Numbered from the stretch's first letter, positions 6,896-21,419 are shown. The stretch is DNA of 34,592 bases from Chthoniobacterales bacterium (GCA_013821455.1 JACDGS010000042.1:1-34592); one strand, 5' to 3'. Notes: generated from the sequence alone by a model not told the origin. Numbers and translations: made by a program.

Positions 6896-7235
6896 TCAAC
6901 GCATGCTTTCGCTGCGCTCTTTCACGATATTCGCCCTCAGCGCCGTGGAGGAATTTTCGCTCTTCCATGTGATGCCTGACTGAGTCCGGATCGGCTGAGA
7001 CAGCGGGCGGGAGATAACGTTTTCATGAGGAAGCTTTTCTACCTGATCCGGTAAAAGCGCCACACCCAGGCCGGTTCCGACCGCCTCGATGATCATTCTT
7101 TCGAGAGTGACGTCTTCCAGCACCTTCGGGGGGCGAAGCCGGCCTGCTGTGATAACGAAAGCTCGGTTCGCATGCAGAGCTTAATCGCTGCGGCAGTCCG
7201 CGTCTGGGACTTGAAGAGACGATCTCGCCCATCGG
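6896..7235 (-). pseudogene. LysR-type regulator, C-terminal remnant
   Basis: In one frame (about 6896-7180) the minus strand reads AFVITAGRLRPPKVLEDV, TLERMIIEAVGTGLGVALLP and DQVEKLPHENVISRPL, which is the end of the effector-binding domain of a LysR-type transcriptional regulator (the AxGLGVALLPxQ motif is characteristic). Upstream the similarity breaks: a segment reading MGEIVSS lies in another frame, and no helix-turn-helix domain follows before unrelated sequence. Thus about two thirds of the gene is missing and at least one frameshift is present. It is not expected to be functional. Together with the sigma-factor remnant at 7500 it marks a small zone of gene decay. Confidence 0.7.
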
Positions 7236-7466: not shown

Positions 7467-7499
7467 CCGCCGAGTTATCTAGAACCGGCCGCTAAATAA

Positions 7500-7863
7500 T
7501 GCGGCGGTAAGGACGCACATTTTGCGTAAGCTTTCGCATCCCCAGCTCGAGGCGGGTCTTGATTGTGCCCAACGGTGTTGCGTCACGTGCGCGATCTCGC
7601 GCTGGCTCAGCCCTTCGCAAAAAGCGAGCTCCACGGCCTCACGTTGGAAGGCTGGTAGCCGCCTGATTTGGTGGTTCGAGAAAAATCCAGAGATCGCCGC
7701 GGCAGATATCCGCTTCCACACGGCTACGCATCCATGAGTGCGACTCCCGCGTGAGCGAAACTTCAAATCGATCCTGGGCGCGATCGTAGGCCGAGCCGCG
7801 GCGCACGCGATCGATCGCGCGCCGTTTCGCAATCGTCAGAATCCAAGCTAAGGGGCGGCAATC
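7500..7863 (-). pseudogene. ECF sigma factor remnant with two frameshifts
   Basis: Three blocks on the minus strand, in changing frames, rebuild the C-terminal two thirds of an RNA polymerase ECF sigma factor. Block one (about 7863 to 7700) reads PLAWILTIAKRRAIDRVRRG, which is region 2. Block two (about 7660 to 7585) reads LPAFQREAVELAFCEGLSQR and continues EIAHVT, the start of region 4. Block three (about 7581 to 7500) reads ATPLGTIKTRLELGMRKLTQ, the recognition helix. Blocks one and three share a frame and block two is shifted, so two compensating-type indels are present. The N terminus is missing at the 15-mer next to 7884. The gene is dead as it stands. Confidence 0.82.
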
Positions 7864-7883: not shown

Positions 7884-7898
7884 CCTTTACTCGTTAGG
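7884..7898 (-). repeat. Exact 15-mer (minus strand) overlapping a stop codon
   Basis: On the minus strand the word CCTAACGAGTAAAGG begins within the end of the halogenase-like gene: its TAA is the stop codon of that gene (7894-7896). The decayed sigma factor begins right after it. Confidence 0.9.
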
Positions 7899-9615
7899 CA
7901 AGAGGCGCGAGCTCTTCTGGCTTCCGATTGAGCGTGGTGCTGGCGGCTTTTGGAACCTCCACCGGCAAACCAAGGTGCGGGTCCGGCCGATGAGCGCACC
8001 AGCGGAAAAAATTCTCGGAACTCGAGACCAGGTCCCGCGTCAGCGGAGTCGTGAGCGCCCACCGGAAACCGTTGCGCACAAATCTCAAATCCCGATCGGA
8101 AAGCTTATCCCCTTCCTTGATCCAATGCGCGCGCACGAGCGAATCCCGGCGCAACGGAACCGCAAAAGCGTAGCTATCCGCCGAGTCAAAGATCCGCTGC
8201 GCTGCATCTTCCGCGCCTAACGTTCCCGCTTCGACCGCTTCGATCGCTTTGACGGAGTAGTCGAAGAACGCCGCGTAATCCGGATCCTCGAAGCTGGAGA
8301 AAATCGGGTTCTTCGTCGCACCGGTAAGATGGGCCTCGTCACCCGTCCGGGTGTAGTCACTCATGCCATTCATGAGATGGAATTCCGCCAGGAAAGTCCC
8401 GAGCCCAAAGACGCGCAACCACGCGTTCCAAAGATCGAAGTTAGTCCACGAAATGAAGGAGCCGTTAACAAGGTTGTCGTTATAATCGAGCACCCTTTGT
8501 TGTTCCAGATCTACGCCAGCGAAAGCCTCTTCATCGAAGTTATCGGTCGCGAGCGCGTTCAACAAGGGATCGAGCAAGGCGCAGATAACTTCCACCGTGT
8601 TAACCATCCCGCGCGAGAACAGTGGATCGACGAAGCCTGACGCGTGCGACATGAGGCAGTAGCGATGGCCCGTGGTTTTCTTCGAGGAATACTGCAAGCG
8701 GCCAGTAGAGACCCAGGGCCGGATAGCTTTGGCATCCTTGAATTGCTCCGCCACGCTCGGATAGATCTTTGCGAACTCCGCAAACTCCTGCTCCGCCGAT
8801 ATGTCGGGCTTGGGATAGCGACGAGGGTCTATAGTCAGGCCGACACTGACAATCGGGTTAGTAGAGAGTGGGTTGTTATTAAAAGGGATAACCCAAAACC
8901 AGCCGCGCTCGAAGCAATGATGCAGTGTGCCTTTGTGGTAGGAGATAGGCAGAGGGTTATTGGCTTCATCGAAAGGTGGGACGTCCACCATGTGGGTAAA
9001 GAGTGTGCGGGAATGATGCTTCAAACGGGTCGGGGTATCGCGCAGGTTCATCCGATGCGCGAGGATGCTGTTATGACCTGTGCCGTCCACCAGGTAGCGG
9101 GCGTTAATTTCCTCGCCGGTGGAAGTCGTTAGTCTTACTCCACCTTCATCTATCTTTAAGTCCGCGATCCGGGTCTTCTGGCGGGAGACTGCGCCGTAAT
9201 GGACCGCGAGGTTATGGAGATAGGCGTCGATATCCTGGCGGAACCAATGGTTCTCATCCCGCGCGCTGGTGCCGAATTGCAATCCTTCCTTGGGATCGTA
9301 TTTCTCGCCCGGGCGATGATAGACATAGCCGAAGTGACGCTTGATTCCGCAAGTCGCAGAGACATGTTTGGCCAGCGTGTCGGCATGGATGAGATGTTCC
9401 AGTTCCGGCAGATCATACTTCTCTGCCAGGAGTGAGATAAGGAGAGACGTATGTGGGATAGTAGATTCACCAACGGCAAAACGCGGGTGCTGATCGGCAT
9501 CGATTAGCACTACTTTAACTCCTTGTTTTCCCAGAATCGTAGCCAGCATGGAACCGGAAAGTCCGTTGCCCAGAATAGCGACATCAAAATCGTGTTTGGT
9601 TTCGTTTAGGATCAT
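7894..9615 (-). CDS. FAD-dependent halogenase-like oxidoreductase
   Basis: The 573-residue product belongs to the flavin-dependent halogenase/geranylgeranyl-reductase superfamily. Visible motifs are the FAD-binding DVAILGNGLSGS (11-22), HPRFAVGESTIPHTS (43-57), the halogenase hallmark WxWxIP as WFWVIP (239-244), and GFVDPLFSRG in the second half. A Lys in CGIKRHFGYVYHR (Lys92) lies where halogenases place the lysine that handles hypochlorous acid, though this needs an alignment. If a true halogenase, it would use FADH2, oxygen and chloride or bromide to halogenate an electron-rich substrate, possibly bound to the carrier protein encoded nearby. It is the last gene of a tight operon, 18 bp after the first KAS-like gene. 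An alternative is a non-halogenating flavin oxidoreductase of the same fold. Its cytosolic partner, a flavin reductase, is not in the window. Confidence 0.8.
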   Translation of the reverse strand: MILNETKHDFDVAILGNGLSGSMLATILGKQGVKVVLIDADQHPRFAVGESTIPHTSLLISLLAEKYDLPELEHLIHADTLAKHVSATCGIKRHFGYVYHRPGEKYDPKEGLQFGTSARDENHWFRQDIDAYLHNLAVHYGAVSRQKTRIADLKIDEGGVRLTTSTGEEINARYLVDGTGHNSILAHRMNLRDTPTRLKHHSRTLFTHMVDVPPFDEANNPLPISYHKGTLHHCFERGWFWVIPFNNNPLSTNPIVSVGLTIDPRRYPKPDISAEQEFAEFAKIYPSVAEQFKDAKAIRPWVSTGRLQYSSKKTTGHRYCLMSHASGFVDPLFSRGMVNTVEVICALLDPLLNALATDNFDEEAFAGVDLEQQRVLDYNDNLVNGSFISWTNFDLWNAWLRVFGLGTFLAEFHLMNGMSDYTRTGDEAHLTGATKNPIFSSFEDPDYAAFFDYSVKAIEAVEAGTLGAEDAAQRIFDSADSYAFAVPLRRDSLVRAHWIKEGDKLSDRDLRFVRNGFRWALTTPLTRDLVSSSENFFRWCAHRPDPHLGLPVEVPKAASTTLNRKPEELAPLA

Positions 9616-9633
9616 AGTCTTACTCAGTTAGGG

Positions 9634-10653
9634 TTAGTGTTGGACAAGGGAAGCTCCCCAGGAAAAACCAGCGCCATTAGTGGCCAGCATAACAAGGTCG
9701 CCGTCCTTGATGCGGCCGGAGTCGATCGCATCCACATAGCCGACCACCATGTCGGTCTCTTGCAGATGACCGTGATGCAGATTCTCGGTCGAGATTTTCT
9801 CCGGCGGAATGCGGAAGGCTTCACAGAACGCTTTCAAGTCCCAGGCCGAGAAGGTCGGATAGACGAAGAAAGAGACATCCTCCATCTTTTTGCCGACCTG
9901 TTTCAGCACGCCTTGCATGACCTTACGGAACATAAACAGGTTTATTGGGATGAGTTCCTTGTTGAACCTTTGAATGTCTCCGCACACATGAAGCCAGCGC
10001 GGATACTTACCGCCTATGTCTGCCGGGTTACGGTTATGAATGCCGGGAATGACCCACATATCGTGCAGCCGTCCTAGCGTCGCTACTTCGATACCCAGGA
10101 TACGACGTTCAGTCATGCCCTTTCGTAAAATCACCGCGCTGCCACCATCTGAAACCACAGTTATCGGAAAGTAGTTATGATTTAGCTCAGGCGCTTTATC
10201 ACCCGCGATAAGTAGCGCCGTCTTATAGCGGTCGTTCGCCGATAACAACGAACAGGCGACCTTCAACGTAGTCTGATAACTCGCGCAACCGCCGGTATTA
10301 ATAGCGGTAGAAAAAGCACGGGTGGCTCCTATCGCCTTTTGCACCTGCCCCGCGGCTGACCAAGTCGGCGCCACGTAGTCTTCCGGTATGCTGGTAAAGT
10401 CGATGATAAGATCTATCTCTTCGGGATCGACCCCGGATTTCTCCATGGTCCGCTTCGCCGCGTTGATCGCGAGATCGGCCGCCGTTTCCTTTCCCGCGAC
10501 ATGAAGAGCTTTGATTCCGATGTCTCTCTCGAAGTCAACATTGGCGGCAAAAGTTTCGGTGGGCTTTTCTTCATCCTCGAAAATCTGAGATAAGGCCTTT
10601 CTCGTCGGCGGCAGGTAGTAGTTAGCTTCCAGGATACCGATGTTCGCGTTCAT
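9634..10653 (-). CDS. KAS III-like ketosynthase with catalytic Cys
   Basis: The 339-residue protein has the thiolase fold of beta-ketoacyl-ACP synthase III (FabH), ending with the family signature GRIKDGDLVMLATNGAGFSWGASLV. The nucleophile is Cys123 in TGGCASYQ. The FabH His-Asn pair is not conserved: the region matching VPHQAN reads YPTFSAWD, and where FabH has the Asn of GNTSAAS this protein has His296 in HGHLQETD. A Cys-His dyad with altered geometry is therefore likely. It probably condenses or transfers an acyl chain in a specialised pathway rather than housekeeping fatty-acid synthesis. It lies 24 bp after the second KAS-like gene, which lacks the Cys, and 18 bp before the halogenase-like gene. 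Partnering of a Cys-bearing and a Cys-less KAS recalls PqsC/PqsB, although sequence identity to those cannot be judged here. Confidence 0.85.
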   Translation of the reverse strand: MNANIGILEANYYLPPTRKALSQIFEDEEKPTETFAANVDFERDIGIKALHVAGKETAADLAINAAKRTMEKSGVDPEEIDLIIDFTSIPEDYVAPTWSAAGQVQKAIGATRAFSTAINTGGCASYQTTLKVACSLLSANDRYKTALLIAGDKAPELNHNYFPITVVSDGGSAVILRKGMTERRILGIEVATLGRLHDMWVIPGIHNRNPADIGGKYPRWLHVCGDIQRFNKELIPINLFMFRKVMQGVLKQVGKKMEDVSFFVYPTFSAWDLKAFCEAFRIPPEKISTENLHHGHLQETDMVVGYVDAIDSGRIKDGDLVMLATNGAGFSWGASLVQH

Positions 10654-10677
10654 AAGCCGGGTTGATTTAGGGTTAGT

Positions 10678-11679
10678 CTAGAAACGAAGCAAACTCACCG
10701 CGGCGGTCGCGCCCATCCCATGAGAGATCGCCAGCGCATAGTCGCCGTGCTTTACTTCGCCGCTCTCAGCTAACGATAAGTAGTTTAGTGGAAAATCTGT
10801 TCCTTGCAGGTGTCCATGCGAAGTGCGATTCGTCGCGCAAACTGCCGATACCTTGCCGCCAAAAGCTTCTTGTAACATTATCTCGTCTTGCGACGAAATA
10901 TTCGAGCAAAGCACACTGGCTACGTCGGCGAACTTCAACCCGGCGCGCTCGAGGAGTTTGTCAGTCATATCCCGCAACGTTTCCGCTTTGGGAAAAGCAT
11001 CGTAGCGAGTCTTATCCAGTTGCATCCTATATAAGTCGATATCACTCGGATGGACGAGCGACCCCCCCGGGATGTAACACACATCGTGGTTATTACCGTC
11101 GGACCATAACTCGGTGTCGATCACTACTCCTCCGGTCGCGTCGCGTTGCAGCACAACCGCGCTCGCGCCATCACCCATCACGGTCACTGGATCATCCGGG
11201 TTTAAAACGCGGTTACCCGGTATGGTCATGTCACCGGTTACAAGCAGCGCGGTCTTCATTGACTCGTTCTCGGATAACATCGCCGCCGCGGAACTTAGCG
11301 CGACCATGAAGTTACTCGCCCCTCCTCCACTGAAGCCTACGACAAAGGACTTAGTCGCTCCTACTTCGGCCTGGACTTTGTTACTCATATTCCACACCGG
11401 CACGAGATACTCTTGGGGAAGGATGGAATACTCAACCACGACATCTACTTGTAACGGATCTACCTTTGCCCGCTGCAAAGCTTCGCGGCCAGCCGCGACC
11501 GCCATGTTGGAAGCCGTCTCACTCGCCTCACCGTTACAGATAGGAACCTTCTCGATGCCCAGCCGGATCTCTATGTCGGAGTTATAAGTTGCTCCTTCCT
11601 CGCGGAAAAGGTCTGCGACCGCGCGCTTGTGCGCTGGCAAATGACAAGCCGCCGCGAGGATTCCAACTGTGGGTCTCAT
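10678..11679 (-). CDS. KAS III-like protein lacking the catalytic Cys
   Basis: The 333-residue protein has the same fold and layout as its downstream neighbour: N-terminal VGILAAACHLP, the central GDMTIPGN and MGDGASAVVLQ, and the C-terminal GEVKHGDYALAISHGMGATAAVSLL. At the position of the nucleophilic Cys it reads SGGGASNF (Gly120), so it cannot form an acyl-enzyme in the usual way. The C-terminal motif HGHLQGTD (His290) is shared with the partner (HGHLQETD), so the two arose from a common ancestor and probably form a heterodimer in which this subunit is structural or substrate-binding, as PqsB is to PqsC. It is the first gene of the operon; the acyl carrier protein gene is divergent, starting 140 bp away. 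It starts with ATG; no strong Shine-Dalgarno is visible. Confidence 0.82.
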   Translation of the reverse strand: MRPTVGILAAACHLPAHKRAVADLFREEGATYNSDIEIRLGIEKVPICNGEASETASNMAVAAGREALQRAKVDPLQVDVVVEYSILPQEYLVPVWNMSNKVQAEVGATKSFVVGFSGGGASNFMVALSSAAAMLSENESMKTALLVTGDMTIPGNRVLNPDDPVTVMGDGASAVVLQRDATGGVVIDTELWSDGNNHDVCYIPGGSLVHPSDIDLYRMQLDKTRYDAFPKAETLRDMTDKLLERAGLKFADVASVLCSNISSQDEIMLQEAFGGKVSAVCATNRTSHGHLQGTDFPLNYLSLAESGEVKHGDYALAISHGMGATAAVSLLRF

Positions 11680-11819
11680 AAAGTATCGCTCAGAAGTGTC
11701 CGGGGGTAGTGTCGCGATTATTCAAATTCGGAAAACCCTTGTCAATCCCCGAAAGCAAAAACTGTTTCGTCACGGAAAATTTACTGGACATGTTTTGTCG
11801 CTCCGGGCACGATGCAAAG

Positions 11820-12152
11820 ATGATAGCGAATAAATCAGAGAATTCCGTGGCCGACGTCAAAGGATCGCTGCGCACATTTATCCTGGAATACGCGGCCGGG
11901 CATGGCGTGACCGAGGTGAAGGATGATGAGCCGTTGTTGAAGAACAACATCATCGACTCTCTCGGTGTCTTTCGGCTGATCGACTTCCTCGAAGAGACTT
12001 TCCCCCTTACGGTGGAGGATACCGATATGGTGCCGGAAGGTTTCGATAACCTGAATGCCATCGAGGCCTTCGTCTATGCCAAGACTGGTACGAGTAAGAG
12101 TCCGCCACAGCCGGAGCCGGTGCCGGAAGAGCAGCTTGTGGCAGTAGCTTAA
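11820..12152 (+). CDS. Acyl carrier protein
   Basis: A small acidic helical protein with the phosphopantetheine attachment motif NNIIDSLGVFRLIDFLEE (Ser in DSLG). The carrier domain runs from VADVKGSLRTFILEYAAG to LNAIEAFVYAKTG, followed by a Pro/Glu-rich tail. From the ATG at 11820 it has 110 residues, close to carrier-protein size; the frame is open upstream to 11709, but those residues (MSRLFKFGKPL and on) do not look like part of the domain. No good Shine-Dalgarno supports either start, so the start is uncertain. It is divergent from the two KAS-like genes and convergent with the acyltransferase gene. It probably carries the acyl intermediate for these enzymes rather than serving general fatty-acid synthesis. 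Confidence 0.82.
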   Translation: MIANKSENSVADVKGSLRTFILEYAAGHGVTEVKDDEPLLKNNIIDSLGVFRLIDFLEETFPLTVEDTDMVPEGFDNLNAIEAFVYAKTGTSKSPPQPEPVPEEQLVAVA

Positions 12153-12196
12153 GTAAGTCTCGGGGAGAGGTGGATTGCACATCTGTGCACCGAGTT

Positions 12197-12365
12197 GTCA
12201 TCCCGAGCGAAGCGCAGCGAAGTCGAGGGATCCCGTGGAGTACCTTAAAGTGTGACTGCCAGGAACCCCGTCGCCCCACGTAAAGTCACTCGCCCGATCT
12301 CGTAGTTATCCTATAGGGCAGTTCCACGGGATCCCTCGACTTCGCTGCGCTTCGCTCGGGATGAC
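12197..12365. repeat. Long perfect inverted repeat, 43-bp arms
   Basis: The arms 12197-12239 and 12323-12365 are perfect reverse complements, separated by 83 bases. The ends read GTCATCCCGAGCG. The element lies between the convergent acyl carrier protein and acyltransferase genes. It has no coding capacity, so it is a non-autonomous repeat or hairpin rather than an insertion sequence. Related, less perfect copies are at 17056, 29641 and 33099. Confidence 0.92.
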
Positions 12366-12399
12366 GACACGACGTGGGTCCAGAATCGCAACGCCTAAG

Positions 12400-13368
12400 T
12401 CACCTCTCCGCGGCGGCCGGTTGCAACCCAGCCGTGTCATTTTCCGGCAGCGGCCACATCGCGCGCAGCATTCTCATCTTCCCCTGCTCAGGATAGCAAG
12501 TCACTACTTTGGAAAACTCCTCTAACAAGTGCGCCCCGATCGCCTGCATGTCGAGCGACTTACCTAGTTGTTCTCGCGGAACGGGCTTGCCAAAGTGAAT
12601 GACAAACTTCCAAGTCGATTCCTCCGCGATCATGCACGGCACCAAGTCGGCGCCTGTCATTTGCGCGAGCCGGATCGCACCTGTCGCCATGCGAAACAGG
12701 CGATCTTCGAAAGGCACATCCACCTGCAACCCACGCGCGGGATCGATCATGACCAGCAATCGCCGACCCGGCCCCAGGATTTTGCGGATATGGGAAAAGC
12801 GCGGCATGGGAGTGAGATCTTCCGCCATGATAAAGACCGGCACGTCGGAAGGCGGACTGAGGGCGTATTGGTAGTCAGTAAGACTCTTCAGCGCGTCCGG
12901 AGGACTGGCACGCACACTCGTAGTGACAATGCCATAAGCGCGCAACCAGTAAGGCAGAATCTCGAACGGCCCGAAATGGAGCGAAGCCAAAACTGTCCCG
13001 CGATCTCCTTCTCGTGATCCGACTAAGTCACTTCCACCTTCCAGGCGGCATCGGCTTAGCCAGCGTGGAGAAGAGAGGCGATCCGGCCACATATAGAAGA
13101 GTTGCGAGTGATAGAGACCCAGACTTTGTCGCAGGAGAAAGCGCCAGCGCTTTGGTCGCCATGACTTAGGGAAACGTCCGTAGTGACTTAGCGGCTTCCT
13201 TTCGCGAAGCTGGATCAAATCCCACGCCGCCGCGAGTGGCCAAAGCAACAGACTGAACAGCCACGTCGGGAGCGCGCTTTCGCACCAGCGCACAAAATAA
13301 AAAGCGCCCCAGCCGACCGCGAGCCGAAAGCGGACGACTAACCCTTTCTTCTTCGAGGCTTCCGCCAC
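12400..13368 (-). CDS. HtrB/LpxL-type (LPLAT) acyltransferase
   Basis: The product resembles the lysophospholipid acyltransferase superfamily related to lipid A late acyltransferases. The hallmark is HFGPFE (an HX4E motif) within TVLASLHFGPFEILPYW, followed by a basic and hydrophobic region and MIDPARGLQVDVPFEDRLFRMATGAIRLAQMTGADLVPCMI, which fits the (F/R)xG and positive-substrate pocket blocks of LpxL-like enzymes. The N terminus is basic with an aromatic membrane-associating stretch (WGAFYFVRW, TWLFSLLLWPLAAAW). It would move an acyl chain from an acyl carrier protein to a hydroxyl or amino acceptor at the inner membrane. I chose the GTG at 13368 because the ATG at 13422 would overlap the upstream propeller gene by 47 bases; the start is not settled. 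Acyltransferases of this type recur in aryl-polyene and resorcinol-like clusters, so a role with the KAS/ACP genes is plausible. Confidence 0.72.
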   Translation of the reverse strand: MAEASKKKGLVVRFRLAVGWGAFYFVRWCESALPTWLFSLLLWPLAAAWDLIQLRERKPLSHYGRFPKSWRPKRWRFLLRQSLGLYHSQLFYMWPDRLSSPRWLSRCRLEGGSDLVGSREGDRGTVLASLHFGPFEILPYWLRAYGIVTTSVRASPPDALKSLTDYQYALSPPSDVPVFIMAEDLTPMPRFSHIRKILGPGRRLLVMIDPARGLQVDVPFEDRLFRMATGAIRLAQMTGADLVPCMIAEESTWKFVIHFGKPVPREQLGKSLDMQAIGAHLLEEFSKVVTCYPEQGKMRMLRAMWPLPENDTAGLQPAAAER

Positions 13369-13375
13369 GAGAGTG

Positions 13376-14563
13376 TTACTTTCGAATCGTAGCGAGACCC
13401 AGCGGCATCCCAGTGCCCACACCGGTAAGTGTCACCGGATCGAGCGTCTCATTCAGCATGCCCGAGCCGTCGATGTTAAAGATACGAAGAGTGGGTCCGC
13501 AGATCGCATAGAAGAAAGCTTCTGTAGGTTCGAGCGCGATATTGGTAATCGGCCCCGCCGTATTCGCCGGCGCGATATGTTGGAGTAACACTGGATTCAG
13601 GGAGTCACTCAGGTCATAAACAGAGATGGTGCGACTTAGTGACTCTGAAGTATAAAGTCGTGTCCCGGCCGCGTTGGTTTTCAACCAACAAATGTCCGAA
13701 CCCGGATTCGGCACCGTGCGAATAAAAGTAAGATTGCCCGCGACATCGTAAGTATAAACAGCGACCTCGGCGCGGTTCAGCACCCCCGCATACAAAATTC
13801 TTTTCTTGGGATGCAAAATCTCCCCGAGAAACTCCCCACCGCTCGTTGGAGGAGGACCAACAAAGCTCAGCTCCGTCATCAAACCCTGCTTGTTAAAGCT
13901 GTAGGTCGCGATGCGCGAAGTCTTGAACTCTAGCCCAAAGACGACACTTCCTTTGGGCCACATCAACACTTGAGCTGGCGAGCTGTCGACCGCTAACTCA
14001 ATCGTGGCACTACTATTCAGAGTGAGGCTGCCGTTAGACTTCACGCGGAAGGTTGAGTAGTTAGGATTATCGGCGGTCGTATCCTGATTAGGATCCTCAT
14101 TCTTATTCGCCACCACCATGAAACTGCCGGACAACCCTATGCTAACCGGGTCCTGTCCGCCCGAGGGAAACGGGGAACCTCGCAAAGTAGTCAAAGTCCC
14201 ATCGGCGTTGATCGTAAACGCGGAGATAGTATTGGAGTGACCATTCACGGCGTAGAGCAGAGTGCCCGTCGGATTGGTGATTACCTCCTGGTCGGCATTA
14301 AACTCCGAACCACTCGAGGCAAAAATGCCGCTCCCTCCCGTAAGATAAGGCGAGCCGGGCAACGCAGTCAGATTGCCCGTGCCATCGATACTGAAACCGA
14401 AAACAGAATTCTTATTCTGAGGATTCCCGATGTCGCTCTCAACATAGAGATAACTCGTCTGCGCGAGCGCGGAACCGACAAGCATAACTATCCCTGCAAG
14501 ACTGAGCAAACCGCGGAAAAGCTTCTTGAACCTCATCCGCTGACTTAGGTGATTTATTCTCAT
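13376..14563 (-). CDS. Secreted lactonase-type seven-bladed beta-propeller protein
   Basis: The 395-residue product carries a signal peptide (FRGLLSLAGIVMLVGSALAQ, cleavage near residue 35) and then repeated blades of the 6-phosphogluconolactonase/YVTN type, with recurring units such as GTGNLTALPGSPYLTGG, NPTGTLLYAVNGHSNTISAF, NADGTLTTLRGSPFPSGG and TNAAGTRLYTSESLSRTISVYD. Such proteins act in the periplasm or outside the cell; most are uncharacterised, and lactonase activity is not implied. The ATG at 14563 follows AAGGAGAC by a few bases, a good Shine-Dalgarno. The stop is 7 bp before the preferred start of the acyltransferase gene, so the two are probably co-transcribed. A link of the propeller to the biosynthetic genes is not evident. 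Confidence 0.82.
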   Translation of the reverse strand: MRINHLSQRMRFKKLFRGLLSLAGIVMLVGSALAQTSYLYVESDIGNPQNKNSVFGFSIDGTGNLTALPGSPYLTGGSGIFASSGSEFNADQEVITNPTGTLLYAVNGHSNTISAFTINADGTLTTLRGSPFPSGGQDPVSIGLSGSFMVVANKNEDPNQDTTADNPNYSTFRVKSNGSLTLNSSATIELAVDSSPAQVLMWPKGSVVFGLEFKTSRIATYSFNKQGLMTELSFVGPPPTSGGEFLGEILHPKKRILYAGVLNRAEVAVYTYDVAGNLTFIRTVPNPGSDICWLKTNAAGTRLYTSESLSRTISVYDLSDSLNPVLLQHIAPANTAGPITNIALEPTEAFFYAICGPTLRIFNIDGSGMLNETLDPVTLTGVGTGMPLGLATIRK

Positions 14564-14771: not shown

Positions 14772-16229
14772 GTGACTCCGACGCTAGAAAAAATCCGCAA
14801 CTTCATCGACGGCCAATTTGTCGGGCCGACGGGCGATCGATTTCTCGATAATATCGAGCCGGCCACAGGAATGCCATACTCGCTCGTGCCAGATAGCGAT
14901 GGCCGCGATGTCGAACTAGCCGTGGTCGCGGCGGAGAAGGCCTTCGCCGATTGGTCAAAGACAACCGTTGCGGAACGTTCTCGAATCATCCTCAGCATCG
15001 CCGAGCTGATCGATCGCGATCTGGAAAAATTCGCGCGGGCGGAATCAATCGATACCGGCAAGCCACTAGCACTCGCGCGCAAGCTCGACATCCCGCGAGC
15101 CTCGAGCAATTTCCGTTTTTTCGCCACCGCGATTCTGCACACTGAGAACGAAGCGCACGTCATGGATGACGTGGCTTTTAACTACACGCTCCGCCAACCG
15201 CGCGGCGTGGTAGGATTGATCTCACCCTGGAATCTGCCGCTCTACTTACTGAGTTGGAAAATCGCGCCCGCGCTCGCGGTCGGTAATACCGCCATCGCCA
15301 AGCCGAGTGAACTAACTCCTATGACGGCCTATCTCCTGTGCGAGATTTGTCAGGAAGCCGGCTTGCCTAACGGCGTTCTCAACATTGTCCACGGGACCGG
15401 GTCTAACGTTGGCTCCGCTATTACCGCGCATAACAAAGTAGGAACTATTTCCTTCACCGGCGGCACAGTGACCGGCCGCAAAGTAGCGGAAGCCGGCGCA
15501 CCGCTCTTCAAGAAAGTCTCCCTGGAACTAGGCGGCAAAAATCCGAACATTATTTTTGCCGACGCCGACCTCGACGCCGCGATCGCAGGGAGCGTTGGTT
15601 CTTCTTTTGCCAATCAGGGACAGATCTGTCTTTGTGGCTCGCGCATCTTTGTCGAACGACCGGTGTATGCAGACTTTGTCGCGCGCTTTGTGGAAAAGAC
15701 TGCGCAACTTAAGTTAGGCGATCCGCTCGAGACTGGCAGCGACCAGGGCGCGATTGTATCGCAGACGCAGTTAGACAAAGTGAAATTCTATGTCAATCTC
15801 GCGCAAAAAGAAGGCGGCACAATCGCATCCGGCGGTAAAGCCCCACCTGCGCCTAACGAGCGTTGCAAGGACGGTTACTTCTTTCCGCCGACCGTTATCA
15901 CTAACTTACCCGTAGGTTGCCGGGTTAACCGCGAGGAGATCTTCGGGCCTGTCGTTACCATCACACCGTTCGATACCGAAGATGAAGTGATCGCTTACGC
16001 TAATGATAGCGAATACGGCCTGGCTTCCAGCGTCTGGACGCAGAATCTCACTCGCGCCCATCGAGTCGCGGAACGCGTGCACACCGGAACCGTCTGGGTC
16101 AATTGCTGGCTCGTGCGCGACTTGCGTGTGCCTTTCGGTGGAATGAAACAGAGCGGCGTCGGCCGCGAAGGCGGCAACGAAGCCTTGCATTTTTTCACCG
16201 AGCCTAAAAATATCTGTATCGCCAAGTAA
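14772..16229 (+). CDS. 2-aminomuconate/2-hydroxymuconate semialdehyde dehydrogenase
   Basis: The 485-residue enzyme is an NAD-dependent aldehyde dehydrogenase. The catalytic Cys lies in FANQGQICLCGSRIFVE, the general base Glu in LELGGKNPN, and the NAD-site block is SPWNLPLYLLSWKIAPALAVGNTAIAKPSE. The GQICLCGSR sequence is typical of the branch that contains ALDH8A1 and bacterial aminomuconate- and hydroxymuconate-semialdehyde dehydrogenases. Next to a RidA-type aminomuconate deaminase and the kynurenine genes, oxidation of 2-aminomuconate 6-semialdehyde to 2-aminomuconate is the best assignment. It begins with GTG after GAGGTAAG. It leads an operon with DUF2277 (30 bp later) and the RidA gene. 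Hydroxymuconate semialdehyde as the main substrate remains possible. Confidence 0.9.
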   Translation: MTPTLEKIRNFIDGQFVGPTGDRFLDNIEPATGMPYSLVPDSDGRDVELAVVAAEKAFADWSKTTVAERSRIILSIAELIDRDLEKFARAESIDTGKPLALARKLDIPRASSNFRFFATAILHTENEAHVMDDVAFNYTLRQPRGVVGLISPWNLPLYLLSWKIAPALAVGNTAIAKPSELTPMTAYLLCEICQEAGLPNGVLNIVHGTGSNVGSAITAHNKVGTISFTGGTVTGRKVAEAGAPLFKKVSLELGGKNPNIIFADADLDAAIAGSVGSSFANQGQICLCGSRIFVERPVYADFVARFVEKTAQLKLGDPLETGSDQGAIVSQTQLDKVKFYVNLAQKEGGTIASGGKAPPAPNERCKDGYFFPPTVITNLPVGCRVNREEIFGPVVTITPFDTEDEVIAYANDSEYGLASSVWTQNLTRAHRVAERVHTGTVWVNCWLVRDLRVPFGGMKQSGVGREGGNEALHFFTEPKNICIAK

Positions 16230-16259
16230 GTACGATAACCCGAAGAACCTAACGAATAT

Positions 16260-16553
16260 ATGTGTCGTAACATCAAAACTCTGCATAATTTCTCGCCGCC
16301 CGCGACCGCGGAGGAGATCAAAGCTTCCTCCCTCCAGTTTGTGCGCAAACTAAGTGGCTTCAGCAAACCATCCAAAGTCAATGAAGAGGCTTTCGAGTGC
16401 GCGGTCGAAAAGGTGTCTCAGGTCGTACTGGAGCTACTCGCTTCCCTGGACACGCAGACACCGCCGCGCGATCGCGCAGTAGAAGCGGCCAAGGCGCGTG
16501 CCCGCTCAGCGAAGCGCTTCCCGCCGGTTGTGCTAAATCCCGTTAGGAGCTGA
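16260..16553 (+). CDS. DUF2277 protein
   Basis: The 97-residue product matches DUF2277 almost from its first residue: MCRNIKTLHNFSPPATAEEI, then the ASSLQFVRKLSGFSKPS block, then NEEAFECAVEKVSQVVLELL. The family is small, helical and of unknown function; the conserved N-terminal MCRNI contains its only frequently conserved Cys. A basic Ala/Lys/Arg tail follows. It lies between the semialdehyde dehydrogenase and the deaminase gene and overlaps the latter by one base (TGATG), so it is translated in the same operon. The ATG is preceded by the word CCTAACGAA 11 bases upstream, not by a normal Shine-Dalgarno. The operon position suggests an accessory role, which is only inference. Confidence 0.88.
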   Translation: MCRNIKTLHNFSPPATAEEIKASSLQFVRKLSGFSKPSKVNEEAFECAVEKVSQVVLELLASLDTQTPPRDRAVEAAKARARSAKRFPPVVLNPVRS

Positions 16554-16978
16554 TGGATCAATCCTTTGAGAGCAAGCGCGCGGCCGAACCAGTCGGAGCG
16601 TTTCCTCACGCCAAGCGAGTTGGCAATCTGCTCTTCCTGTCAGGCATCGGGCCACGCGTGCGAGGAAGTAAGGAGATTCCGGGGGTAATACTTGGCGAAG
16701 GCGGCCGCGTCATTAGTCATGACATAGAAGCTCAATGTCACGCGGTCTTTGAAAACGTCCGCCTCGTCCTGGAAGACGCCGGCGCGTCCTGGAACGACAT
16801 CGTGGACGTGACTGTGTTTCTTACCGACATGAAGAACGACTTTGCCGTCTTCAATCGTATTTACCCGGAATACTTTGCGGGACCGGAGAAGCCGAATCCT
16901 ACCAGGACTACCGTCGAAGTCGGCGCTCTACCTACCCCGATCGCCATCGAATTAAAGGTCATTGCGGCGATCAAATAA
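16553..16978 (+). CDS. RidA/YjgF family, probable 2-aminomuconate deaminase
   Basis: The 141-residue protein belongs to the RidA (YjgF/YER057c) family of enamine/imine deaminases, which act as trimers in the cytosol. Visible features are GAFPHAKRVGNLLFLSGIGP near the N terminus, the block DIEAQCHAVFENVRLVLEDAGASWNDIVDVTVFLTDM, and RTTVEVGALPTPIAIELKVIAAI at the end. The residue pattern around RTTVEVGALP places the family Arg that binds the substrate carboxylate. Its length and its position two genes after the semialdehyde dehydrogenase match the bacterial 2-aminomuconate deaminases of the NbaF/AmnD type, which release ammonia from 2-aminomuconate. AGGAG lies 6 bases before the ATG. A general RidA detoxifying role is the alternative. 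Confidence 0.85.
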   Translation: MDQSFESKRAAEPVGAFPHAKRVGNLLFLSGIGPRVRGSKEIPGVILGEGGRVISHDIEAQCHAVFENVRLVLEDAGASWNDIVDVTVFLTDMKNDFAVFNRIYPEYFAGPEKPNPTRTTVEVGALPTPIAIELKVIAAIK

Positions 16979-16991
16979 AGTCCCGGTCGTG

Positions 16992-17006
16992 CCTAACGAG
17001 TAAAGG
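16992..17006 (+). repeat. Exact copy of 15-mer CCTAACGAGTAAAGG
   Basis: Lies 13 bases after the stop of the RidA-type gene and about 50 bases before the hairpin repeat at 17056. Confidence 0.9.
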
Positions 17007-17055
17007 CTGCACATCTTCCTCGTGACTCCCCGAACGTTATTCGACCAGACCTCAT

Positions 17056-17158
17056 GTCATCCCGAGAGGAGCGAGGGATCCCGCAAGCTACGCAGGAAAA
17101 TCACTATCAAACGTGGCTTGCGGGGTCCCTCACTGCGCTGCGCTCCGTTCGGGATGCC
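17056..17158. repeat. Hairpin repeat, GTCATCCCGAG family
   Basis: Left arm 17056-17092 and right arm about 17117-17158 are imperfect inverted copies that share GTCATCCCGAG, GAGGGATCCCGCAAGC and its reverse. It lies between the convergent RidA-type and methyltransferase genes. Confidence 0.8.
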
Positions 17159-17191
17159 AACGCGCATGGCTCCCGCGACGCTCATCGCCGC

Positions 17192-18043
17192 CTAAGTAAT
17201 AATATTGAATGCCCCATGCTGCCCGCGGACCTTGCTGCGCACCGCATCCAGCTCAGCTTCCTTCTCGAACTCGACGAAGAGATGCCGATCGATCAGCAAA
17301 CGAACATTACTATTAAGTCCCATCAACTCGCGGTAAAGCGCCTCATAAGGCGAGCCCGGGATGCTATGATCCCGGCGCACTCGATTGCGATAAGTCCAGA
17401 AATTTGTCAGTAGAATGAAAGGGTAAGCAAAAGGCAGAAGGATAGCCGAGGTGCTCGAAGTTTTGGTGAAGATAAATTGCTTGATCCGAAATCCTGAAAG
17501 CTTCGCCAACAGGCGTAATTTCTGCACGCCCAGCAGAAAGAGATGTCCAAAGTAAATCTCTTTCGCCTGGGCATCATCCGCCATCCAGACAGAGTCAATC
17601 TCGTTAGGCGGCATTGTCTTTAAGTGATACTCGGTCTCGAAAAGAAAGTAACTTAGCTTCGACTGGAGATTAGAGTAGTTAGGGGTCGTGATGAAGAGCG
17701 AGCCCCCGGCCTTGAGCACGCGATTAAACTCCTGGAACACGCGATATTGATCGCTGAAATGTTCTATCCCTTCCTGGCAAAAGACGAGATCAGCGAACCC
17801 ATCCGACACCGGCAAACCGGCCATGAGATTCGCCCGCTCACAAGTCATGCCCTTGGTCGTGAAGTATTCGGGAAAGAGATCGTAGGCATGCACCTCCGCG
17901 CCCGTGTCGCGCAAGGCTTTCGAAGTCGTGCCAGACCCAGCCGGAGTATCTATCGCTACCTTGCCCGCAAACTCTTTCCGATGCTGCTGGATGTAGCGTT
18001 TGACGTAATACTTGATGCTAACCGGATTATCTTCGTAGAGCAT
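17192..18043 (-). CDS. Class I SAM-dependent methyltransferase
   Basis: The 283-residue protein has the SAM-binding Rossmann motif VAIDTPAGSGTTSKALRDTG (about 29-48), then the acidic residue in VHAYDLFPE, a motif IV-like DLVFCQEGIEHFSDQ and LKAGGSLFITTPNYSNLQSK. These fit the Methyltransf_11/23 type that often act on lipids, sugars or small molecules. The C-terminal 130 residues contain a hydrophobic stretch (ILLPFAYPFILLTNFW), which suggests membrane association. It lies on the minus strand, convergent with the aminomuconate operon and divergent from kynureninase (114 bp). I cannot name the substrate. No regulatory site is obvious in the divergent gap. Confidence 0.8.
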   Translation of the reverse strand: MLYEDNPVSIKYYVKRYIQQHRKEFAGKVAIDTPAGSGTTSKALRDTGAEVHAYDLFPEYFTTKGMTCERANLMAGLPVSDGFADLVFCQEGIEHFSDQYRVFQEFNRVLKAGGSLFITTPNYSNLQSKLSYFLFETEYHLKTMPPNEIDSVWMADDAQAKEIYFGHLFLLGVQKLRLLAKLSGFRIKQFIFTKTSSTSAILLPFAYPFILLTNFWTYRNRVRRDHSIPGSPYEALYRELMGLNSNVRLLIDRHLFVEFEKEAELDAVRSKVRGQHGAFNIIT

Positions 18044-18157
18044 GAGTCGGCGCGAAACCTAGGGGGCGCTGTCGCAAGCGTAAAGCGAAAAGCGGACAGC
18101 CTTCTTGCCAGCCCGCAATTTTCAGCGTAGGCGGGTCAGCGTTGACTGCGAAATACC

Positions 18158-19429
18158 ATGACCTTTTCCGCTGACGAAGAGTTTGCCCGGCAACTGGACC
18201 GCGAAGATGCGCTCGCCGGCTTTCGCGATCGCTTCCATATACCAACAGGCGCGAACGGTAAGCCGCTCATTTACTTCGTCGGTAATTCACTTGGGCTTAT
18301 GCCAAAGGCGACGCGCCAGGCGGTCGATCAGGAATTAGATGACTGGTCGCGGCTGGCAGTGGACGCGCATTTCGACGCCGCGACGCCTTGGTATTCTTAT
18401 CATGAAACCTTGCGTGAGCCAGCGGCGCGGCTGGTCGGAGCTTTGCCTAACGAAGTCGTCTGCATGAATAGCCTGACGGTGAACCTGCACCTTCTCATGG
18501 TGACTTTTTATCGTCCGACGAAAGGGCGCGCCAAGATTCTGATGGAAGAGCCGGCTTTCCCTTCAGACACCTACGCGATCAAATCACAGATTGCGCATCA
18601 TGGTTACGACCCGGAAGAATCTCTTATCCTGGCCAAGCCACGATCCGGAGAGTTAGCTCTGCACCAGGAAGACATTGAAGGCATCATCGAGAAACAGGGC
18701 GATGAGATAGCGCTAGTCTTATTTGCCGGAGTCAACTTCTTTACCGGTCAGTTATTCGATATCTCTCGCCTAACGTCACTCGCACAGAAGCAAGGTTGCA
18801 TGGTAGGAATCGATCTCGCACACGCGGCGGGCAACGTGCCGCTCGCCTTGCATGATTGGAATGTGGATTTCGCCGTCTGGTGTTCCTACAAGTATCTTAA
18901 CTCCGGTCCGGGCGCGGCCGCGGGCGCCTTCGTGCACGAGCGACATGCGCGGAACCGGGAGCTACCGCGGTTCGCCGGCTGGTGGGGGAACGATCCAGCG
19001 ACACGGTTCCGGATGCAGCTTGAACCAGACTTTGTGCCGGTGCCTTCGGCCGATGCCTGGCAACTAAGTAACCCTTCGATTCTGGCGATGGCGCCGCTGC
19101 GAAGTTCGCTCGCTATTTTTGATGAAGCAGGCGGTATGTCGGCTTTGCGCGCCAAGTCATTAAGACTAACTGGATACTTCCAGTTTCTCCTCCAGCAAGC
19201 TTCATCAGAAGTCTTCACCGTCATTACACCTCCCGAACCTAACGAGCATGGGTGTCAGCTTTCCATTCTGGTCCACGAACGCGGGAAAGAACTCTTCGAG
19301 CGACTCGAAGCCGCGGGCGTAAAGTGTGACTTCCGGGAGCCGAATGTCATCCGGGTTGCGCCCACTCCCCTCTATAACACTTTCCACGAGGTCTGGCGCT
19401 GCGCGCAGATTCTCGCGCGACATCGTTAG
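18158..19429 (+). CDS. kynU: Kynureninase
   Basis: This PLP enzyme hydrolyses kynurenine or 3-hydroxykynurenine to anthranilate or 3-hydroxyanthranilate and alanine. The 423-residue length is typical. Recognisable blocks are YFVGNSLGLMPKATRQAVDQ (31-50 region), PWYSYHETLREPAARLVGA, the central GIDLAHAAGNVPLALHDWNVDFAVWCSYKYLNSGPGA with the PLP lysine Lys245, and the C-terminal CDFREPNVIRVAPTPLYNTF. In this setting, with the monooxygenase, 3-hydroxykynurenine is the expected substrate. The upstream gene is the divergent methyltransferase, and a response regulator lies convergent downstream with a duplicated end sequence between. The start codon ATG at 18158 gives the normal N terminus. Confidence 0.96.
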   Translation: MTFSADEEFARQLDREDALAGFRDRFHIPTGANGKPLIYFVGNSLGLMPKATRQAVDQELDDWSRLAVDAHFDAATPWYSYHETLREPAARLVGALPNEVVCMNSLTVNLHLLMVTFYRPTKGRAKILMEEPAFPSDTYAIKSQIAHHGYDPEESLILAKPRSGELALHQEDIEGIIEKQGDEIALVLFAGVNFFTGQLFDISRLTSLAQKQGCMVGIDLAHAAGNVPLALHDWNVDFAVWCSYKYLNSGPGAAAGAFVHERHARNRELPRFAGWWGNDPATRFRMQLEPDFVPVPSADAWQLSNPSILAMAPLRSSLAIFDEAGGMSALRAKSLRLTGYFQFLLQQASSEVFTVITPPEPNEHGCQLSILVHERGKELFERLEAAGVKCDFREPNVIRVAPTPLYNTFHEVWRCAQILARHR

Positions 19430-19588
19430 GCAGACTTAGCCAGGTAACTCGCGCAGGCGTAACATAGGCTTCCAGCCTGTCAGGTCGCACGGGCTTCCAG
19501 CCCGGCGTTTACAGTCTGCGGCAGGATGGCTGCGTCCCCACTTTTCCGACAGCGATCAGGCAGACTTAGCCGAGTAACTCGCGCAGGC
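19428..19588. repeat. Element flanked by 31-bp direct repeat
   Basis: Bases 19428-19458 and 19558-19588 are copies of each other with two mismatches. The second copy includes the last codons and the stop of the response regulator gene. Between them are 99 bases with two palindromes (GGCTTCCAGCCTG and GGGCTTCCAGCCC), the kind of short REP unit found in many soil-bacterial genomes. It lies between convergent kynU and the regulator. Confidence 0.8.
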
Positions 19589-19991
19589 AACTAATCAGAC
19601 CTGGAATAGGAAAAGGTTTAACCAGAAATTTCACTTCCTGCTCGATGAGAAAATGTCTTACTGCCGGGTCGGTCGCATAACCGGTAATAAAGATGAAACG
19701 ATCCTCCAACGGTGGCCGAATTTCTTTTGCCTTGAGATAGAACTCGTCGCCGCGCAGTTGTGGCATCTTTAAATCGCAAATGACCGCGTCGTAATCGTGC
19801 GCTTTGACCTTGAGCAAAGCTTCGTCGCCGTCATAAGCCACATCGACCAGATAGTTTTCATCCGCCAAAATCCATTGCAACGCCGAAGCCAGTTGCTGGT
19901 CGTCGTCCACGACTAGAATCGCTTTGAGAGCGTAGGTCTTGCCCTCCTTAGGGCTAACTGGTTCGGGATCGGGTTTCATTCCGGCGGTCAA
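19566..19991 (-). CDS. Single-domain (CheY-like) response regulator
   Basis: The 141-residue product is a lone receiver domain with an N-terminal tail of about 20 residues. The acidic pocket is VVDDDQ (28-32), the phosphorylation site is Asp73 in CDLKMP, Thr lies in FITGYATD, and the invariant Lys is in FLVKPFP. No output domain follows, so it must act by protein contact or as a phosphate relay. It lies between kynureninase and the monooxygenase on the opposite strand, with no kinase nearby. The 3' end is duplicated next to kynU (see repeat). The start codon is ATG; an internal Met5 is possible. Confidence 0.9.
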   Translation of the reverse strand: MTAGMKPDPEPVSPKEGKTYALKAILVVDDDQQLASALQWILADENYLVDVAYDGDEALLKVKAHDYDAVICDLKMPQLRGDEFYLKAKEIRPPLEDRFIFITGYATDPAVRHFLIEQEVKFLVKPFPIPGLISCLRELLG

Positions 19992-20090
19992 CCTTAGTTA
20001 GCAGTCGCAGTGCCAATCGGCGCGCGCTTCCGAGAGCGCGGTCCAGGTCGGGGCTTGGCAAATCGCCGGAAGCGGCCACGGTAGAGCGGC

Positions 20091-21419
20091 ATGGCAGAAA
20101 AATTTCTTCTCGTTGGTAGCGGCCTGGCCGGCGGATTGCTCGCGGGTTTCCTCGGCCGCCGTGGCTATGAGGTAGACCTTTTCGAGCGCCGCTCCGACCC
20201 GCGAGCCGGGAACACCGTCGGCGGACGCTCGATCAATCTCGCGCTTTCCACCCGCGGAATTCACGCCTTGCAACAGCTTGGTCTCGCCGACGAAGTTTTG
20301 CGCCAGGCCATTCCGATGCGTGGCCGGATGATTCACGATAAAGATGGCGCGCTTCACTTTTCCTCCTACGATCGCGATCCAGCGAAATGTATCAACTCAG
20401 TCGGACGCGACGTCCTTAATACGGTCGTAATCGAAGCGGCGCAACGCTACCCGAATGTTCGAGTGCTGTTCAATCAGCGCTGTCATAAGGTCGATCTCGA
20501 GACACCGGCGGCGCACTTTGTCGAGACTGAGACTAACTCTGTCAGCACGGCGACAGCAGATGCGATCATAGGAGTTGACGGCGCTTTCTCCACGGTGCGG
20601 GGCGCGATGCAGCGGCTAAGTCGTTTCGAGTACAGTCAGACTTATCTCCCGCATGGCTATAAGGAACTCACCATCCCGCCTGGGGCCGATGGTTCATGGC
20701 AGATGGAAAAGAATGCGCTGCATATCTGGCCGCGCCGCAGTTTTATGATGATTGCGCTTCCTAACCCGGATGGGTCTTTTACCTGCACGCTCTTCTGGGA
20801 ATTTGACGGTCAGCGCAGCTTCGCGACGACTAAGACCGACGATGAAGTGCGTCGCTTCTTTGCCGAAGAATTTCCCGATGCGGTCCCACTGATGCCGACC
20901 TTACTCGAGGATTACAGGACTAACCCCACTGGGTCGTTAGTTACTATTCGCTGTGCGCCTTGGACCTATGAGGATAAGGTCGCGCTCCTCGGGGATGCTT
21001 CCCATGCCGTAGTGCCATTCTACGGTCAGGGGATGAACGCCGCTTTCGAAGATTGCGTCGTCTTCGATGAATGCCTGGCCGAGTTCCCTAACGAACGTAA
21101 GAGAGCTTTTACTGAATATTTCACGCGCAGAAAGAAGAACGCCGACGCCCTCGCTGATCTCGCGGTGCATAACTTCGTCGAGATGCGCGATAAGACCGCC
21201 TCACCATCCTTCCGCGCGAAGAAGAAACTCGATCATGCGCTCGAAGGCTTGTTACCAAGACTCTACCTGCCGCTCTACACCATGGTTTCCTTTACCCGCA
21301 TCCCTTACGCCGATGCGGCACGGCGAGCGCGCGTGCAGGATACCATCGTCTTTTCCATTCTAGGCGTGCTGGTGCTAAGTCTCATCGTGCTTCTCCTTCT
21401 AGCCGGTCGAGTCCTTTAA
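20091..21419 (+). CDS. kmo: Kynurenine 3-monooxygenase with C-terminal membrane anchor
   Basis: The 442-residue FAD enzyme hydroxylates kynurenine to 3-hydroxykynurenine using NADPH and oxygen. Motifs are the FAD dinucleotide-binding LVGSGLAGGLLAGFLGRRGY (Gly9, Gly11, Gly14), NTVGGRSINLALSTRGIHAL, which is diagnostic of kynurenine monooxygenase, DAIIGVDGAFSTVR, and the FAD-ribose motif LLGDASHAVVPFYGQGMNAAFED. The last 25 residues (IVFSILGVLVLSLIVLLLLAG) form a hydrophobic helix, so the enzyme is likely tail-anchored to the inner membrane, as in mitochondrial enzymes. The next gene starts 15 bp later, so it is probably the first gene of an operon with a methyltransferase. The upstream gap of about 100 bp is divergent from the response regulator. 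Confidence 0.95.
   Translation: MAEKFLLVGSGLAGGLLAGFLGRRGYEVDLFERRSDPRAGNTVGGRSINLALSTRGIHALQQLGLADEVLRQAIPMRGRMIHDKDGALHFSSYDRDPAKCINSVGRDVLNTVVIEAAQRYPNVRVLFNQRCHKVDLETPAAHFVETETNSVSTATADAIIGVDGAFSTVRGAMQRLSRFEYSQTYLPHGYKELTIPPGADGSWQMEKNALHIWPRRSFMMIALPNPDGSFTCTLFWEFDGQRSFATTKTDDEVRRFFAEEFPDAVPLMPTLLEDYRTNPTGSLVTIRCAPWTYEDKVALLGDASHAVVPFYGQGMNAAFEDCVVFDECLAEFPNERKRAFTEYFTRRKKNADALADLAVHNFVEMRDKTASPSFRAKKKLDHALEGLLPRLYLPLYTMVSFTRIPYADAARRARVQDTIVFSILGVLVLSLIVLLLLAGRVL

Follow-up and report, generated by a model that had tools for sequence, protein, structure and literature searches.

Two adjacent ketosynthase III-like (KSIII-like or KASIII-like) proteins, only one of which carries a nucleophilic cysteine, raise the question of what chemistry such a pair may perform beside a halogenase, a carrier protein and an acyltransferase. 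The genes lie in a stretch of DNA from a Chthoniobacterales bacterium (GCA_013821455.1 JACDGS010000042.1:1-34592), which was analysed at its full length of 34,592 nucleotides, is called the window below, and represents a complete contig (G000:C75); the relatives of this genome are metagenome-assembled genomes (MAGs) of soil Chthoniobacterales (Verrucomicrobiota). Five open reading frames were confirmed in the window, encoding the halogenase, the two KSIII-like paralogs KASA and KASB, the carrier protein and an LpxL/HtrB-type acyltransferase, and the GC content of this set (54.9%) equals that of the surrounding DNA. The module is probably part of a larger, mostly undescribed pathway that places a halogenated aromatic group onto a sugar- or amino-acid-containing product; on this view, a proposal whose chances we judge to be about even, the products of the five genes would shuttle, halogenate and transfer the acyl group in an aromatic-acyl pathway with dispersed genes, the aromatic being pyrrole or another one.

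KASA is encoded at 9634–10653 on the minus strand and was assigned by the Pfam families ACP_syn_III and ACP_syn_III_C and by its active-site residues; KASB, at 10678–11679 on the same strand, was assigned by Pfam, by alignment and by its position as sister clade to KASA. KASA has Cys123 (codon 10285–10287), His296 (9766–9768) and Asp301 (9751–9753), and in the alignment its Thr267 stands at FabH His244 and its His296 at FabH Asn274. These residues make up a Cys-His-Asp triad with His at the FabH Asn site and Asp five residues further on, so that the HGHLQxTD motif, which an earlier note on this DNA had reported for two adjacent KAS III-like proteins, is the second half of the triad; Cys123, His296 and Asp301 are invariant in all seven intact KASA proteins aligned. 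At the Cys position, KASB of the window has Ala121 and the relatives have either Ala or Ser; KASB has Asn at the FabH His244 position, and retains His290 and Asp295. The first condensing His is gone from both proteins (Thr267 in KASA, Asn in KASB). The genes, coordinates and motif of the earlier note were confirmed, as was its statement that the FabH His and Asn positions are both altered, with His in place of Asn; its contrast of Cys123 with Gly120 holds for the loss of Cys in the partner, the aligned residue of KASB being Ala121, one position further on.

Neither protein resembles a housekeeping FabH in these features. The Cys-His-Asn triad is kept in all FabH proteins compared from relatives and in the FabH of the window genome itself (contig C105); KASA and KASB lack this triad and form two sister clades with strong support, apart from FabH, in a tree in which long branches were flagged. 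It has been reported that the triad of ChlB3 is Cys113-His296-Asp301 and that the same His/Asp pair occurs in CerJ of the cervimycin pathway (PMC9573744), and that the first condensing His is replaced by Val in CerJ and by Asn in Pau29, which is tied to lost condensation (PMC4425429). Since the Cys-His-Asp residues of KASA are like those of ChlB3 and CerJ, a likeness that rests on published residue numbers and on the alignment with DpsC, the suggested chemistry is acyl transfer rather than a PqsBC-like condensation, and KASA is likely to act as an acyltransferase. ChlB3 and CerJ share the KSIII fold with KASA, but each has a nucleophile of its own, and the cited papers describe no Cys-less partner of either; here, KASA and KASB would rather probably form a heterodimer with KASB as the second half. 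The DpsC-type priming ketosynthases, the second-best Protein Data Bank (PDB) family for KASA, share the GHLxxxD motif but differ in having Ser at the nucleophile position and His at the position of KASA Thr267 (both His residues are kept, LPH/GHLxxxD), and they catalyze condensation. KASIII proteins at two acidobacteriotal loci (L065 in G815 and L066 in G807) are 30% identical to KASA and have Ser, His, His and Asp at the key positions, as in DpsC. The NCBIfam family PRK06840 was considered for KASA and rejected as unspecific, housekeeping FabH scoring higher.

The content, order and conservation of the set, its motifs and co-occurrence, and its horizontal movement are established. Eight genomes from two phyla, namely six Chthoniobacterales and two Terriglobia MAGs, have KASA, KASB and the halogenase together. 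Within the family, 6 of the 83 genomes have the pair, and the Terriglobia have it at 81% and 66% identity; it is absent from the other genomes of the phylum sample at the thresholds used, and the viral contigs searched contained no relative. All compared genomes are metagenome-assembled, so absences are weak. The order KASB-KASA-halogenase is constant, with KASB next to KASA in all eight genomes, and in the window the intergenic gaps of 19 and 25 bp indicate an operon-like unit, in agreement with the earlier claim of a tight operon with a WxWxIP halogenase-like flavoprotein. The genes of the carrier protein and the acyltransferase lie together in convergent orientation; the whole five-gene arrangement is identical in the window, G463 and G473, the pair is displaced relative to the operon in G003 and G009, and at locus L054 a nonribosomal peptide synthetase (NRPS) of 1376 residues (C-A-T-TE) stands in place of the acyltransferase, by which the terminal transfer step looks exchangeable. 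The A-domain code of this NRPS, read by eye as DILQLGMIWK, matches glycine codes and serves as a lead only. KASA of the window is 80.5% identical to that of the acidobacterial genome G483, against 43.5% for FabH, and G483 and G484 are 93.4% identical in FabH but only 74.1% in KASA; by this mismatch, the set has clearly been transferred horizontally between phyla. The set is under purifying selection, with dN/dS of about 0.03–0.2 where computable, values that are rough because dS is near saturation, and its co-occurrence in eight genomes of two phyla together with the low dN/dS shows that it is not a chance association. The earlier picture is therefore borne out in that the group is compact and conserved, its KASIII pair is not of the housekeeping kind, and a carrier protein, an acyltransferase and a probable halogenase accompany it; neither of the two findings that were to speak against it, a neighbourhood conserved in no relative or KAS proteins within the housekeeping FabH clades, was made.

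The larger pathway becomes visible in relatives. On a single contig of G473 (C104), the five genes stand in window order, and behind the halogenase follows an adenylating enzyme that the contig end truncates. The same contig encodes two CmlS-like halogenases, an acyl-CoA-dehydrogenase-like enzyme with electron transfer flavoproteins (ETFs), and a group of aminosugar and glycosyltransferase genes, namely an epimerase/dehydratase, a DegT-type aminotransferase and a GT4 glycosyltransferase, as well as an alkaline-phosphatase-like protein, the last recognised by eye and without an NCBIfam match. The adenylating enzyme matches PltF, an L-proline carrier ligase (259 bits); the dehydrogenase matches AnaB, a prolyl-ACP dehydrogenase (438 bits, next 325), as well as PigA (425 bits) and RedW (376 bits), both of these below the NCBIfam cut-offs. 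The extra halogenases score similarly against CndH, CmlS, ChlB4, Bmp2 and PltA, of which Bmp2 and CndH were assigned from their PDB codes. This gene combination is the known logic for making pyrrole-2-carboxyl carriers and halogenating them. The window genome itself holds both the prolyl-adenylating enzyme (contig C67) and the prolyl-carrier dehydrogenase with ETFs (C37), and a halogenase ortholog (C79); G009 has the same parts on two contigs whose ends fit the order in G473, and both Terriglobia have the adenylating enzyme, the dehydrogenase, a halogenase and a second carrier at a separate locus. The second carrier lies beside the adenylating enzyme in G009, G003, G483 and G484; two carriers are present in G009, G003 and G484, only the proline-side one in G483, and only the KAS-side one in the window genome within the stretches examined. 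The earlier note had found no adenylation domain, which is true of the window and does not extend to the relatives, where one lies beside the set, or to the window genome, where its ortholog is on another contig; the five genes as a complete small pathway without adenylation are not upheld, as the cluster of the relatives adds the PltF-like enzyme, the prolyl-carrier dehydrogenase and halogenases. About 15–20 kb from the PltF-like gene of the window genome, alkaline-phosphatase-like proteins and a GT4 glycosyltransferase are encoded (L087–L088, G000:C67:98000-127512), a layout repeated in G003:C128.

The halogenase of the window, of 573 residues (7894–9615, minus strand; Pfam Trp_halogenase and PDB matches), is of another type. 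Among solved structures it comes closest to CtcP (457 bits) and PltM (326 bits), with PltA (87 bits) next and far below, and the match extends to residue 475, into the C-terminal region beyond the FAD domain; Lys92 in CGIK (codon 9340–9342) aligns with the catalytic Lys of CtcP, and WFWVIP occupies residues 239–244. The catalytic Lys has been named Lys98 in CtcP and Lys87 in PltM (PMC12400496; PMC6424973). Given this similarity to the tetracycline 7-halogenase CtcP and the phloroglucinol halogenase PltM and the presence of Lys92, the enzyme is a probable working halogenase of the phenolic type, and differs from both in that its gene adjoins a KSIII pair. The best-surviving alternative follows from here: the set may serve to acylate and halogenate a small molecule that is phenolic or otherwise aromatic, with no part played by the pyrrole genes, in which case KASA/KASB acylates a free aromatic acceptor, the CtcP/PltM-type enzyme halogenates a phenol and the pyrrole genes are mere neighbours in some genomes. 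It agrees with the grouping of the halogenase with enzymes acting on phenols (PMC6424973), with KASA-KASB-halogenase being the tightest unit, found in G483 without carrier or acyltransferase neighbours, and with the KSIII-like pairs XclB/XclC and NonJ/NonK, which are listed ester-forming precedents (PMC4425429). Against this, the pyrrole genes share a contig with the set in G473 and are linked to it by contig-end order in G009, they co-occur with the KAS pair in five of the six family genomes and in both Terriglobia, and no phenolic-precursor gene was recognised in the set; this alternative is thus rather unlikely, though it remains the foremost of the rivals.

A pyrrole-derived acyl group is slightly favoured. 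In favour of the acyl-shuttle proposal, among the 83 family genomes, close orthologs of the adenylating enzyme occur in 5 of 6 genomes with the KAS pair and 6 of 77 without it (Fisher 9e-5); for the dehydrogenase the corresponding counts are 5 of 6 and 10 of 77 (Fisher 5.5e-4). Several points weigh against the proposal or its pyrrole part, among them that these tests ignore shared ancestry. The parts lie on different contigs in the window genome, so their link is made by analogy with G473, G009 and G463; G462 (86% complete) lacks a close adenylating enzyme and a close dehydrogenase despite having the KAS pair, a case that also suits the phenolic alternative, and in G483 no carrier was detected next to KASB. 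The substrates of PltM are phenols and anilines (PMC6424973), which by analogy may point to a phenolic rather than a pyrrole substrate for the window halogenase. Comparison of the structural models (mean pLDDT 76 and 78, flap region low) did not separate acyltransferases from condensing KASIII enzymes, the KASA model matching ChlB3, DpsC, PqsC and FabH alike at Z 34, tied within about 1 Z. In addition, several genomes, including G467 and G472, have pyrrole genes and no KAS pair, by which the KAS set is an add-on. The loci in question, L120 (G467), L121 (G472) and L122 (G447), contain genes for a prolyl-adenylating enzyme, a prolyl dehydrogenase, ETF and a halogenase, one of them including aminosugar genes, and represent a putative wider family of halogenated-pyrrole clusters in the same bacterial family. 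A PDB profile search with the KAS alignment placed FabH and DpsC on top and gave no discrimination.

A second alternative is that KASA/KASB is a PqsBC-like heterodimeric condensing enzyme, which joins an acyl group by a C–C bond to a carrier-bound or free beta-keto compound and leads to a halogenated aryl or alkyl ketone. PqsB and PqsC are likewise two KASIII paralogs with Cys in one subunit only (PMC4807248), and both KAS models have PqsC among their best structural matches, which are tied. However, the condensing enzyme PqsC keeps the FabH His (Cys129-His269) and has Val299 for Asn, and PqsB lacks all three residues (PMC4807248), whereas KASA, with Cys123-Thr267-His296-Asp301, has lost the first His and has His where FabH has Asn, with Asp further on, the opposite arrangement and that of the acyltransferases; moreover, no PqsA/PqsD-type partner stands beside the set. 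This alternative is therefore improbable, and of the PqsB/PqsC precedent drawn earlier the Cys-less partner stands and the condensing chemistry does not. It is very improbable that the set is a decaying remnant without present function, as the interrupted KASA and halogenase of G009 and the halogenase fragments near the set in G003 and G009 are outweighed by five intact frames in the window, low dN/dS and catalytic residues invariant across two phyla. The interruptions in G009 are a stop in KASA and a TAA in the halogenase, and the broken second-halogenase fragments lie at L032 6628–7166 (G003:C66:21628-22166) and L033 6796–6960 (G009:C66).

The two remaining genes of the set fit an acyl-transfer route. 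The carrier protein (11820–12152, plus strand; open frame from 11709) was recognised by NCBIfam matches below cut-off and by its orthologs, and has its phosphopantetheine site at Ser47 in IIDSLGV (codon 11958–11960), DSLG being common to the orthologs of relatives. The divergent carrier protein proposed earlier is thus present, with its start moved: translation probably begins at 11820 (MIANKSEN...), as in these orthologs, which leaves about 140 bp of divergent intergenic DNA. Links to ornithine-lipid OlsH/OlsI or cispentacin AmcB through the carrier were rejected, the matches being weak and below cut-off and the partner genes not seen. The acyltransferase (12400–13422, minus strand) matches Pfam Lip_A_acyltrans with 25.6 bits against a cut-off of 22.3, has the HX4E motif at residues 149–154 and is paired with the carrier gene in G003, G009, G463 and G473; it likely performs the final acyl transfer from the carrier to the acceptor.

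On the acyl-shuttle proposal, the PltF-like enzyme would load L-proline on one carrier, and the PigA/AnaB-like dehydrogenase with ETFs would oxidise the prolyl to a pyrrole-2-carboxyl carrier. The CmlS/PltA-like halogenases, and possibly also the CtcP/PltM-like enzyme of the window, would halogenate the pyrrole acyl group; the target of the halogenases may be the carrier-bound group or the acceptor. KASA would then take the acyl group on Cys123, assisted by His296-Asp301, and pass it to the carrier protein encoded beside KASB, while KASB, the other half of the enzyme, would form no acyl-enzyme itself. From the carrier, the LpxL-type acyltransferase would hand the group over to its acceptor, which is probably a glycoconjugate or lipid with an aminosugar, the presence of the aminosugar being a tentative suggestion; in one relative the C-A-T-TE NRPS takes the place of this enzyme. 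We infer the substrate, the heterodimer, the direction of transfer and the acceptor from these comparisons.

A close known counterpart is the CloN system of clorobiocin and coumermycin. In clorobiocin, proline is loaded on CloN5 by CloN4 and oxidised by CloN3; CloN2 then shifts the pyrrolyl group from CloN5 to CloN1, and its delivery to the sugar is the work of CloN7 (PMC11218499). The parts of the present system fit the same roles, with a prolyl-adenylating enzyme, a prolyl dehydrogenase, a proposed inter-carrier acyl shuttle and a probable final acyltransferase, and with both a first and a second carrier in G003, G009 and G484; the present system differs in its two paralogous KSIII proteins, one of them Cys-less, its LpxL-type final acyltransferase, its added halogenases, the dispersal of its genes in the window genome and its hosts, Verrucomicrobiota and Acidobacteriota. 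Chlorothricin, in which ChlB3 works with ChlB2, ChlB4 and ChlB6, likewise has a flavin halogenase and a carrier protein that serve one aromatic acyl group (PMC9573744), but its halogenase ChlB4 is CmlS/PltA-like, unlike the CtcP/PltM-type enzyme of the window.

Several other genes surround the set. A lactonase-type beta-propeller protein, a possible accessory (13376–14563, minus strand; Pfam Lactonase), overlaps the start of the acyltransferase gene; a homolog of 41% identity precedes the NRPS at L054 (975–2243), and none lies beside the other copies of the set. Kynurenine-type degradation genes adjoin the set at 14772–21419 and encode an aldehyde dehydrogenase of the 2-hydroxymuconic semialdehyde type, a RidA-like protein, a kynureninase (TIGR01814, 462 bits) and an FAD monooxygenase; they were rejected as partners for anthranilate-derived quinolones, none adjoining the set in G003 or G009. 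On the 3' side of the halogenase, the short frames at 6896–7123 and 7479–7832 are apparent gene remnants, which by eye resemble a LysR effector domain and sigma-factor region 4, and a DNA methylase (N6_N4_Mtase) is encoded at 1390–2478, by the contig end.

The most far-reaching form of the proposal, which we hold only tentatively, is that a heterodimeric KSIII-like acyltransferase with an obligate Cys-less partner moves the halogenated aromatic acyl group from one carrier to the other, as a mobile and exchangeable module with an LpxL-type or NRPS last step. The open-access literature searched contained no product of such kind from soil Verrucomicrobiota or Acidobacteriota. The enzyme set is directly testable, with two carriers, one shuttle, one halogenase and one final transferase, and the halogenase forms a new branch of the CtcP/PltM group that is useful for biocatalysis. 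If the proposal is true, KSIII-like acyl shuttles can work as heterodimers, a mobile halogenation-acylation module would be common to soil Verrucomicrobiota and Acidobacteriota, and the halogenated products of these uncultured bacteria, whether glycoconjugates or lipopeptide-like, would form a new family.

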